Positions 9,393 to 12,385 of a stretch of 36,415 bases of DNA are shown here, one piece after another. Both the position numbers and the translations under genes were made by a program. The number at the start of each line of letters is the position of its first letter. The stretch's first letter is position 1. Source of the DNA: an uncultured Caryophanales bacterium. Its GTDB lineage: Bacteria > Bacillota_I > Bacilli_A > RFN20 > CAG-449. The notes under the pieces were generated by a model. The model did not search any database. It had not been told where the DNA came from and saw only the letters and a list, made by a program, of their open reading frames with translations. The stretch is from the NCBI GenBank assembly GCA_945873815.1, contig CAMCEE010000018.1:1-36415 (forward strand). Reading direction: 5' to 3'.

Positions 9393-10202
9393 CTATTTTT
9401 CAATATGTGCAGTTATTGTATTTCCGTTCACTTTTACGAATCCTAAACTTTTATACGCTTTAATTGCAGGAATATTATCAATATCAACATCTAATTTCAT
9501 ACCTTTATTTCCATTTAACTCTATTGCATAAGATAACATTTCTTTTGCTACACCTAATCCTCGATATTCTTCTTTAACATAAACATCAAACGGTATATTA
9601 ACTTCATCCGTATAAGTAATATCAACATATCCGACAACTTTATTATCTTTAACGCATAATATAACTTTAAATTTATCAAGTGAATTTAGCACTTTATCTG
9701 CAGTCCAATAGAATCCATCGTCATGAATACTAATATAATCTTTTTTATACTCGTCACTATACAAAACAATATTGTGCTTCCCTTTATAATAACAAGGAAC
9801 ATTTAATACCATCTTTTGTTGTTCTTTATCGAAAATAGCCTTGCGTTCTTTTAATTTTCTCATCATATAATCATTTTTAGGATTAAATACTACATCAATC
9901 GAATAGTCATTATATTCCTTATCTAGCAGTTCAAATAATTCTTTATATGCAATTTCACTACTTGATATTGCGTGAGTAATTTCAATATATTTTTCATCAG
10001 TAAGGATATATAAAACAAATATTCCAATTATCTTGTTATCATCATATATACCTATAAATCTTTTATTATTTAAATTTCTAGGATTATAGAAATAATACTC
10101 TCCTTCATCATCTAGTAAAAATGGATCATAATATTTTTCATTTTCCATGATATCATCAACAAAATATTTATAATCTTTTAAATCAAATAACTCTTTTTTC
10201 AT
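9393..10202 (-). CDS. GNAT-family acetyltransferase (probable tandem GNAT fold)
   Basis: 269 aa. The C-terminal half is a GNAT domain with the acetyl-CoA loop YRGLGVAKEML (R214-A219) and the DIDNIPAIKAYKSLGF segment (241-255). The N-terminal half (about 1-135) has a GNAT-like strand pattern (RFIGIYDDNKIIGIFVLY) without a recognisable acetyl-CoA loop, so it may be a degenerate second domain. It starts 11 bp after the hepT stop, with only a weak GTGAT site upstream, and the next terminator lies beyond it (9215-9248), so it is probably the third gene of the mntA-hepT operon. Substrate unknown. Some toxin-antitoxin systems use GNAT toxins, but those are shorter single domains; a link to the toxin is inferred from position only. 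Confidence 0.78.
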   Translation of the reverse strand: MKKELFDLKDYKYFVDDIMENEKYYDPFLLDDEGEYYFYNPRNLNNKRFIGIYDDNKIIGIFVLYILTDEKYIEITHAISSSEIAYKELFELLDKEYNDYSIDVVFNPKNDYMMRKLKERKAIFDKEQQKMVLNVPCYYKGKHNIVLYSDEYKKDYISIHDDGFYWTADKVLNSLDKFKVILCVKDNKVVGYVDITYTDEVNIPFDVYVKEEYRGLGVAKEMLSYAIELNGNKGMKLDVDIDNIPAIKAYKSLGFVKVNGNTITAHIEK

Positions 10203-10213
10203 ATATCAATCAC

Positions 10214-10549
10214 TTATTTAATAATATCTTCACAATAATCTTTTAATTCTCTAATACTCTCTACTGCAGTATTCCATAATATTTCAAGATTTATCGTATC
10301 ATATCCATGAACAATTCTATTTCTAAGTCCTTTTATTTGTTTCCAAGGAATCTTTTTATATTCATCCAAAAATTCATTTGATAATTTACTGGTTAATTCA
10401 CCTATTTGAAACAAATTAAAAGCAACAATCTCCTGCAAATCATTGTCACCATAAAAATCAGCTTCTTTGATATCTTTTAGTTTATTCATTATTCTGTCAC
10501 AGTGACTTATTATCATTAAGATGATACCATTGTCTTTAAAATTTAGCAT
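10214..10549 (-). CDS. hepT: HepT-like toxin (DUF86 / HEPN family RNase)
   Basis: 111 aa, all helical. RNRIVHGY (R76-Y83) is the R-X4-H-X-Y motif of HepT toxins: R76 and H81 form the HEPN RNase site and Y83 is the tyrosine that MntA AMPylates in characterised type VII systems. The ATG overlaps the mntA stop by 7 bp (ATGCTAA) and GGAGGAT lies 11 nt upstream, so translation is likely coupled to the antitoxin. Family members cleave RNA (tRNA in described cases) as dimers or higher oligomers. Motif and length are intact, so it is probably functional. Confidence 0.88.
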   Translation of the reverse strand: MLNFKDNGIILMIISHCDRIMNKLKDIKEADFYGDNDLQEIVAFNLFQIGELTSKLSNEFLDEYKKIPWKQIKGLRNRIVHGYDTINLEILWNTAVESIRELKDYCEDIIK

Positions 10550-10995
10550 AGTTTAATTAAATCCTCCTCAATTTGTGATCTAAAATATTCATCCATTTTT
10601 GATGAAATAAATACTAAATCAACTTTTTTGCCTAATTCAGCCTCAAGTCTATCTTCAAGGATACCCTGGTCGATTAAAGTTTTAACATTTCCTTTATCAC
10701 ATAAAATATCTACATCAGAATTGGCATTTGCTTCTCCTCTAGCATAAGAGCCAAACAAATATATTTCTTTTATATCAAATTCATTTAGAACTTTCTTAAG
10801 TATTCTTTTAATGTCTTTTAATTTTAAAACATTAGGAAATGCATCTTCTTTTATCAATGAAACTAAATACGAATTTCTCATATTGATATTATCTAAGTAT
10901 TCTATAATCTCATCATCTTTTCTTACTCTAAACTGATACATCTTATAGTTATCTTTATTATATTTTGATATGTATGCATTTTGTTTAAAACTCAT
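10543..10995 (-). CDS. mntA: MntA-like nucleotidyltransferase antitoxin with N-terminal ribbon-helix-helix-like domain
   Basis: Minimal nucleotidyltransferase. Residues from the ATG at 10995: GS-X10-DXD motif (G82, S83, D94, D96) in FGSYARGEANANSDVDIL and a third acidic residue D126 (KKVDLVF). MntA AMPylates and silences HepT in described systems. Unlike plain MntA (about 95-140 aa, starting near the NT fold), this one has about 55 extra N-terminal residues. The pattern there is strand YKMYQFRVRK, helix DDEIIEYLDNI, turn NMRNS, helix YLVSLIKED, which is the layout of Arc/MetJ ribbon-helix-helix proteins. The start at 10995 is chosen because AAGGTGG lies upstream and the upstream ATG at 11019 would lie inside the -10 region. 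Two palindromic operators precede it. Confidence 0.85.
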   Translation of the reverse strand: MSFKQNAYISKYNKDNYKMYQFRVRKDDEIIEYLDNINMRNSYLVSLIKEDAFPNVLKLKDIKRILKKVLNEFDIKEIYLFGSYARGEANANSDVDILCDKGNVKTLIDQGILEDRLEAELGKKVDLVFISSKMDEYFRSQIEEDLIKLC

Positions 10996-11015
10996 ATATA
11001 TGCACCACCTTCCAT

Positions 11016-11068
11016 ACATATGATATCATATGTGCATTCAATTATCAACACATATGATATCATATGTG
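11016..11068 (-). promoter_or_regulatory. Promoter and twin palindromic operators of mntA-hepT-GNAT
   Basis: Two identical 18-bp perfect palindromes, ACATATGATATCATATGT, at 11016-11033 and 11050-11067 (the second extends to 20 bp, 11049-11068); centres 34 bp apart. On the minus strand -35 TTGATA (11043-11048) and -10 TATCAT (11020-11025) are 17 bp apart with a TG extension. The -10 lies inside the first palindrome and the second overlaps the edge of the -35. A protein on either site would block RNA polymerase, and the RHH-like part of MntA is the obvious candidate. Confidence 0.8.
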
Positions 11069-11080
11069 AGCAAAACAACG

Positions 11081-11143
11081 AAAAAGACCACCATTACGAG
11101 TGATCTTATTAATTCTTCTGTTACCTATTTGATAACTAATTTT
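11081..11143 (-). repeat. Dispersed terminator-bearing repeat, copy 4, with terminator of rpsF-ssb-rpsR
   Basis: The hairpin AGATCAC / GTGGTCT (8-nt loop) followed by five T at 11081-11107 ends the ribosomal operon. The core at 11113-11143 is identical over 31 bp to 9259-9289. The stretch 11144-11200 also contains a GGACCG motif shared with copy 2 (near 8988). Confidence 0.75.
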
Positions 11144-11206: not shown

Positions 11207-11434
11207 TTAGTCAATAATGAATGGTAATAAAGCCATGATACGAGCATTTTTAATTGCTTGTTCAACTGCTCTTTGGTGTTTAGCACATGCGCCTGTAACA
11301 CGTCTTGGAGCAATCTTACCATTTGGAGAAATGAAACGTTTTAATGTTTCAACATCCTTATAGTCAATGACTTGATTCTTATTTTTACAGAAAATACAAA
11401 CCTTTTTTCTAGGTCTAATCTTTTTGAATCCCAT
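11207..11434 (-). CDS. rpsR: 30S ribosomal protein S18
   Basis: 75 aa, typical length. It ends in the conserved block [20 protein letters not shown] followed by [11 protein letters not shown]. It carries C13, C16, C50 and H53, the zinc-ribbon type of S18. S18 pairs with S6 on the 30S platform, and here it closes the rpsF-ssb-rpsR operon. AGGAAA lies 8 nt before the ATG. The terminator follows at 11081-11107. Confidence 0.97.
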
Positions 11435-11486
11435 ATTAATGTTTCCTTTCTTTCACTGTGAGTGAAACTATTCAATCTACCTCGAA

Positions 11487-11951
11487 TTAGAAAGGTAAAT
11501 CATCATCAGCTACATCAATTGAAGATACATTCTTTTGTTGTGGTTCTTCAATAACAGGGTCTGGTTGATAACTAGGAACAGTATCATTTACAAATGCACT
11601 ATCTCCATTTGTTACACCACTTGTATTCTCATCTTTTCTTTCTAAGAATTGAACTGAATCACAAATAACCTCAATAACTGATACTTTGCGTCCATCTTTA
11701 GAGTCGTAGGTACGTTGATTTAATCTACCTTCAACTCCAACTAAAGAACCCTTGTGAACAAAACGAGAAACATTTTCTGCTGCTTGATTCCAAACTGTAC
11801 ATGGAATGAAGCTTGCTGTTTTATTTCCAGCTGCATCTTTTGTTCTGTTGTCAACTGCTACTGTGAAGGAAGAAACAGCTGCACCACTTGTAGTTCTTCT
11901 TAATTCTGGATCTCTTGTCAAGCGTCCAACTAATACAACACGATTAATCAT
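11487..11951 (-). CDS. ssb: Single-stranded DNA-binding protein
   Basis: 154 aa. OB-fold (residues 1-105) beginning MINRVVLVGRLTRDPELR, a glutamine/proline/acid-rich linker, and the acidic tip DDDLPF that recruits replication and repair proteins. It coats ssDNA at the fork and in repair, as a tetramer in this family. It sits between rpsF and rpsR, the usual Bacilli order, with AGGAGG 8 nt before the ATG. Confidence 0.97.
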   Translation of the reverse strand: MINRVVLVGRLTRDPELRRTTSGAAVSSFTVAVDNRTKDAAGNKTASFIPCTVWNQAAENVSRFVHKGSLVGVEGRLNQRTYDSKDGRKVSVIEVICDSVQFLERKDENTSGVTNGDSAFVNDTVPSYQPDPVIEEPQQKNVSSIDVADDDLPF

Positions 11952-11981
11952 AAATTTATCCTCCTATTGTTTTGTGGATAC

Positions 11982-12266
11982 TTATTTTACTACGACGATA
12001 TGACGTAATACATTAGTATTGAGTTTTGCTCTTCTACTGAATTCATCTAAGACTGCTGGAGCAGATACTGTTGCTTCAACAACTACGTAATATCCTTTTT
12101 TCTCTTTGTTGATTTCGTAAGCTAAATCTCTTACGCCCCATTCATTAACGTTATCGATTGTTCCACCGTCAACTGTTAATAAATCGTTGAGTTTACCAAT
12201 TAATTCATTACGATTTGCATCGTCTAAATTAGCTTTAAGGATATACATGATTTCATATTTCTTCAT
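11982..12266 (-). CDS. rpsF: 30S ribosomal protein S6
   Basis: 94 aa, usual length: MKKYEIMYILKANLDD at the start, WGVRDLAYEINKEKKGYYVV in the middle, LNTNVLRHIVV at the end. The ATG at 12266 follows GGGAGGTG; the longer open frame reaching 12356 is the non-coding leader and starts upstream of the expected transcript. First gene of rpsF-ssb-rpsR. Confidence 0.96.
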   Translation of the reverse strand: MKKYEIMYILKANLDDANRNELIGKLNDLLTVDGGTIDNVNEWGVRDLAYEINKEKKGYYVVVEATVSAPAVLDEFSRRAKLNTNVLRHIVVVK

Positions 12267-12385
12267 ATATTTACACCTCCCTATGGTCTTCTGGCTGCAT
12301 CTAAAAATGCAACAGAGAAGTTCTTTCCGCCTACCTTCACGAAAGCGGACACTCATACTATATAATAGTATCTTCTAAATGTAAA
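12267..12385 (-). promoter_or_regulatory. rpsF promoter and structured leader, probable S6:S18 autoregulatory RNA
   Basis: Promoter: -35 TTTACA (12380-12385), 17-bp spacer, -10 TATAGT (12357-12362). The about 85-nt leader folds into a GC-closed hairpin (TCCGC 12345-12349 with GCGGA 12326-12330) and a second stem (GTTGCAT 12307-12313 with ATGCAGC 12294-12300) before GGGAGGTG. Bacterial rpsF leaders bind an S6:S18 complex through a CCG-containing loop; a CCG is present, but I have not shown that this fold matches the known motif. Confidence 0.6.

Follow-up and report, generated by a model that had tools for sequence, protein, structure and literature searches.

Modules of the mntA-hepT type are among the most abundant toxin-antitoxin (TA) modules. 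The pair is defined by an RX4HXY motif in the HepT toxin and a GSX10DXD motif in the MntA antitoxin (PMC7641770). Neither MNT nor HEPN was considered a likely transcription regulator in a 2009 analysis, which proposed a trans-encoded component (PMC2701414). MntA of Shewanella oneidensis (SO_3165) binds its own promoter, in which palindromes lie near -10 and -35, with about 1.6-fold repression (PMC4621449). As this binding was reported for a protein that lacks the N-terminal domain described below, which a preliminary description of the present locus had proposed as the repressor part, promoter binding is not peculiar to a fused MntA. In the open-licence literature that was searched, no paper unites MntA, HepT and the ribbon-helix-helix (RHH) fold, and MntA fused to an RHH or XRE domain is undescribed.

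The locus considered here lies on a 36,415-nucleotide stretch of DNA from an uncultured Caryophanales bacterium of the gut (GCA_945873815.1, contig CAMCEE010000018.1, positions 1 to 36,415), referred to as the window. It is read here, with a probability of about 0.85, as a type VII-like mntA-hepT operon in which the antitoxin has gained a DNA-binding domain, represses its own genes and inactivates HepT by addition of AMP. In comparing the locus to SO_3165/SO_3166 (PMC4621449, PMC7641770), both motifs, the order of the genes (antitoxin first), the overlapping toxin gene and the nucleotidyltransferase (NT) fold are shared; in SO_3165 no DNA-binding domain can be recognised and the two palindromes differ from each other, whereas the present antitoxin carries a separate domain of 54 residues and faces two identical palindromes of 18 bp. 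The best structural neighbours of the C-terminal part (Z 11.8-10.9) are the Legionella HEPN-MNT antitoxin (PMC11586414; 8xeh/8xeo) and Haemophilus HI0073 (1no5), which differ in consisting of the NT domain only, with about 100 residues. Type II RHH antitoxins (RelB, ParD, CopG-like, VapB) likewise have an N-terminal DNA-binding domain and autorepress through promoter palindromes, but their C-terminus wraps the toxin, whereas here it is a predicted enzyme. TA components joined to an RHH or HTH domain are also known from paREP1 (HEPN-RHH) and HicB-RHH/HicB-Xre (PMC2701414); in these, the added domain sits on a HEPN or HicB protein and not on a nucleotidyltransferase antitoxin.

Table. Features of the mntA-hepT locus in the window
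Feature	Position	Strand	Detail	Source
mntA-like antitoxin gene	10543..10995	-	150 aa: N-terminal DNA-binding domain (putative) + nucleotidyltransferase	translation
N-terminal domain	10834..10995	-	residues 1-54; predicted helix-strand-helix-helix, RHH-like	AlphaFold2
Predicted DNA-contacting beta-strand YKMYQFRVR	10921..10947	-	residues 17-25	
Minimal nucleotidyltransferase domain	10546..10833	-	residues 55-150	
GSX10DXD catalytic motif	10708..10752	-	G82 S83 ... D94 V95 D96	
hepT-like toxin gene	10214..10549	-	111 aa, intact	Pfam HepT-like E 3e-24
RX4HXY motif of HepT	10301..10324	-	R76-NRIV-H81-G-Y83 (RNRIVHGY): predicted RNase site + AMPylated tyrosine	
Proximal operator (putative) ACATATGATATCATATGT	11016..11033	.	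over -10 hexamer	
Distal operator (putative) ACATATGATATCATATGT	11050..11067	.	directly upstream of -35 hexamer; 34 bp from proximal copy	
Predicted promoter TTGATA-17-TATCAT	11020..11048	-	TG before -10; region's best-scoring site (10/12), in a scan whose sites are no more numerous overall than in shuffles	
Intrinsic terminator of upstream rpsR transcript	11084..11107	-		

The antitoxin reading frame had been placed correctly in the preliminary description, and every N-terminal segment quoted there is present in the translation in the same order. Translation from the ATG at 10995 begins with MSFKQNAYISKYNKDNYKMYQFRVRKDDEIIEYLDNINMRNSYLVSLIKEDAFPN...; an in-frame ATG at 11019, which would give a longer product, falls inside the proximal operator and precedes the ribosome-binding stretch GGAAGGTGG, and the alignment of all relatives begins at MSF, both of which make 10995 the likely start. 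The catalytic site was rightly described as complete, GS-YARGEANANS-DVD being an exact fit to GSX10DXD, and 30 relatives all share G82, S83, D94 and D96. Pfam NTP_transf_2 extends over residues 62-148 (E 7e-15), the NCBIfam MntA model matches at E 7e-12 with 45 bits, below its naming cut-off of 60 bits, and PADLOC places the NT domain in the candidate defence family PDC-S09. The AlphaFold model of residues 53-150 matches solved MntA/MNT antitoxins (Foldseek E 4e-6; VIA structural Z 11.8-8.5), the best of which is the MNT antitoxin 8xeo at 11.8. The upstream mntA overlaps hepT by 7 nt (ATGCTAA), and the NCBIfam HepT model scores the toxin at 44 bits, again below its 60-bit naming cut-off.

The TA pair is located directly downstream of rpsF-ssb-rpsR (window 11207-12356), behind the intrinsic terminator; as this ends the rpsR transcript, the arrangement of the sequence suggests that the pair is probably transcribed from its own promoter. 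On the other side, a two-part GNAT acetyltransferase gene (9393-10202) begins 11 bp after hepT. It was considered as a third TA component and rejected, as it was found beside no other locus of the family.

The mntA promoter holds a perfect palindrome of 18 bp, ACATATG-ATAT-CATATGT, in two identical copies, both of which fall within 11010-11070. This segment had been named earlier as a target for gel shift, with no mention of the palindromes. A palindrome scan of the window with 3 mismatches is not significant alone, while searches of the genome and the order are. With up to one mismatch, the 16-bp core CATATGATATCATATG occurs at three places in the 1.8-Mb genome, namely the two copies here and the promoter of a paralogue. 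Across 279 genomes of the order the exact core has 12 sites, all 12 of them just upstream of a family gene that was found independently. The palindrome or a variant of it (up to 5 mismatches) lies 28-71 bp upstream of the start in all 30 family members examined; in 64 MntA genes with other N-termini the best match has 4-8 mismatches, mostly 6 or more, and no such palindrome precedes L047, L048 (with DUF4926) and L049, three relatives in which the N-terminus is cut short or swapped for another. An inverted-repeat operator over the protein's own promoter is thus conserved together with the N-terminal domain, and this pattern of sequence conservation indicates that the domain very probably reads the palindrome in its own promoter. 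The earlier proposal of a fused repressor therefore holds in its main part, a DNA-binding N-terminus that very probably reads a conserved operator at its own promoter, while the RHH identity of that N-terminus is only plausible.

In a scan of named genomes, 31 full-length relatives were found in uncultured gut Bacilli (recorded as Erysipelotrichaceae, Bacillales and Bacilli), along with shorter or rearranged ones, and about 46 full-length matches came from the 279 genomes surveyed in the host's order. Conservation in many genera shows that the N-terminal domain is not a chance extension. One MntA (L123:1500-1925) has DUF4926 (E 6e-11) in place of the domain and lacks the palindrome upstream, which is evidence of domain exchange. 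Other MntAs of the order carry XRE-like or RelB-type N-termini (L006-L013, L128-L207). Among the 63 that were classified, which are the strongest further matches of the survey in the 279 genomes and not a random sample, 53 are XRE-like and 10 are RelB-like (RHH); N-termini were trimmed before classification since a shared linker spoils iterated profiles. Pfam supports representatives of these classes through HTH_3 and, above cut-off for L012, RelB, so that an unambiguous RHH (Pfam RelB) fusion to MntA exists in the same genus. These fusions resemble the present protein in joining a DNA-binding N-terminus to the NT domain, often with hepT next, and differ in an unrelated N-terminal domain and the lack of the ACATATG operator. 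The statement of the preliminary description that MntAs are mostly NT only is accurate for relatives in Clostridia (mostly NT-only, about 100 residues) but not for the host's order, where all 63 of those classified have a DNA-binding N-terminus; the survey of homologues suggested there does find the fusion, which is no singleton, a DNA-binding N-terminus being usual in this order.

A profile search with the N-terminal domain alone recovers it in three settings: in MntA, in proteins of about 128 residues, and by itself in small proteins (56-76 residues), to which the MntA domain is homologous (hhalign 99%). The downstream neighbour of the ~128-residue proteins resembles HipA kinases (HipA_C E 1e-5, below the Pfam cut-off); such pairs were seen at L122:290-1614, L208, L210, L211, L226-L241, L251, L252 and L254. 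All 23 genes in the HipA setting have ACATWTG-n4-CAWATGT at -45 to -53, with 7-bp arms, a 4-bp gap and a G/C-rich centre, the conserved form being ACATTTG-CCCC/GGCC-CAAATGT at about -45. In control DNA, up to 3 arm mismatches are found in 5 of 1037 pieces and up to 2 in none. The MntA and HipA settings have different types of toxin and antitoxins that are otherwise unlike, so that the domain is the common factor. The usual partner of HipA is the XRE-type HipB, for which reason the pairing of this domain with a HipA-like kinase looks like an undescribed HipA-like module. Stand-alone copies of the domain lack this half-site palindrome, and no stand-alone relatives were found in phages and plasmids; at one locus, L212 (G045:C1:36750-37942), three small stand-alone paralogues occur within about 1.2 kb.

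The centre of the operator changes together with residue 21 of the predicted strand, although independent changes are few. This residue is Q in 22 of 22 cases with an ATAT centre, P, S or L in 23 of 27 with an asymmetric centre, and K or R in all 23 with a G/C-rich centre (Fisher 4e-10 and 3e-19, with relatedness ignored). About 5 changes of residue 21 fall on a tree of 49 MntAs, with the centre always concordant and never opposite, which is too few for significance; only about 2 of these changes fall on well-supported branches, many branches of the tree being weak, and the difference between K and non-K may be a single event.

The DNA-binding domain is likely an RHH as judged from its predicted model, whereas a reading in which it binds DNA through another helix-strand-helix-helix fold, or through an RHH with a shortened first helix, is considered unlikely. 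AlphaFold2 places helices at residues 5-16, 30-35 and 40-52 and strands at 17-19 and 23-25 (block pLDDT 81-91), with the same elements predicted when the domain is modelled alone; the strand-helix-helix topology of an RHH is present, with the helix 5-16 ahead of it. Across 30 relatives, hydrophobic residues occupy positions 20, 22 and 24 of the strand, whereas 21 is Q or P, 23 is an invariant R and 25 is K or R, an alternation that is expected of an RHH strand and that puts the centre-matching residue 21 on the outer face. Searches by similarity favour the other fold: neither the N-terminus by itself nor 28 relatives had a credible match in Pfam, NCBIfam or PHROGs, weak matches to RRF_GI, MenC_N and FlhA being taken as chance, and a PDB sequence search with profiles A3, A5 and A6 returned noise only (homing endonuclease, NDP kinase, aldo-keto reductase). 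A comparison with RelB-type RHH by hhalign was negative (probability 1.4%), and Arc/CopG have 3-4 residues more between the strand and the last helix. A search of the class for the RHH_7 family gave no usable relatives, and the match of one stand-alone relative to RHH_7 speaks for an RHH at an E of only 0.1. Foldseek of the N-terminal model against the PDB and viral models, in the spirit of the fold check suggested earlier, found no significant match, which on the terms set there neither refutes the RHH proposal nor confirms it, so that compatible topology and strand alternation are what stand behind the fold that we infer. RHH proteins are obligate dimers, and for this reason a poor match is to be expected from a 55-residue model of the monomer, so that a missing match does not argue an RHH away; in VIA-align there was only one chain to compare.

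Two further readings concern the regulator and the toxin. It is highly improbable that the N-terminal part serves for oligomerisation or for binding the toxin and that another, trans-encoded regulator binds the palindrome, although such a DNA-binding component was proposed for MNT-HEPN by Makarova in 2009 (PMC2701414). The operator tracks the N-terminal domain rather than the toxin or the nucleotidyltransferase part, being kept where hepT is broken or gone, recurring with the HipA-like kinase partner and missing at MntAs with other N-termini; it is also found nowhere else in the genome, so no regulator gene bearing its own site is seen. That the locus is no longer a TA pair, with MntA surviving to regulate on its own or to protect in trans against related toxins, is quite improbable, and here the state of hepT has to be weighed. 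The gene is broken in 6 of the 31 relatives, by a stop (L016, L017, L022 and L025), a frameshift (L024) or a 3-codon deletion that takes out the catalytic histidine (L028), and none is detected in 7. The antitoxin genes beside broken hepT are intact. A second antitoxin copy in the same genome (G000:C19:3131-3583; L124:3131-3586), 62% identical and with the same operator, is followed by a hepT reduced to its first ~6 codons, and cross-regulation between this paralogue and the window's locus is possible. Pairwise dN/dS is about 0.07-0.22 in both antitoxin domains and about 0.1-0.2 in toxin-less antitoxins, again in both domains, which would suit a function that outlives the toxin, but this selection may predate toxin loss. 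A toxin often broken or missing beside an intact antitoxin is also what is expected if HepT is toxic, and the window's own hepT is full length with RX4HXY intact, as 18 of the 31 relatives also appear to be.

In the preferred reading, that of an autorepressed mntA-hepT operon, the antitoxin would have gained an N-terminal DNA-binding domain whose RHH-like dimer, with the strand at residues 17-25 in the major groove, would bind ACATATG-n4-CATATGT over -10 and beside -35, thereby repressing transcription of mntA-hepT. The C-terminal nucleotidyltransferase would add AMP to the tyrosine of RX4HXY and leave the RNase inactive, both the AMPylation by MntA and the toxicity of HepT being predicted by homology. 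Inactivation of the toxin and control of the pair's genes would thus probably lie in one protein. By analogy with classic type II systems, the HepT:MntA ratio would likely change operator occupancy, and transcription may be linked to AMPylation state and toxin binding, as had been put forward at the outset.

A broader and tentative proposal, which we hold as less likely than the alternative that it is wrong, is that this is an undescribed DNA-binding domain family common to two unrelated TA chemistries, an AMPylating MntA and a HipA-like kinase partner, in which half-sites are the same and one strand residue sets the 4-bp centre that separates the circuits; in the MntA version, occupancy of the operator may depend on how far HepT is AMPylated, and copies that lack a toxin, among them the C19 paralogue, may act through the identical operator as co-repressors or give protection in trans. 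The fusion addresses the transcriptional control of mntA-hepT modules by joining a DNA-binding part to a modifying enzyme, and each base of its putative operator can be specified. As DNA-binding fusions (XRE, RelB-type and the present domain) are usual in the order, a coupling of modification to transcription is testable on many natural variants, and residue 21 is a direct handle for a swap of specificity.
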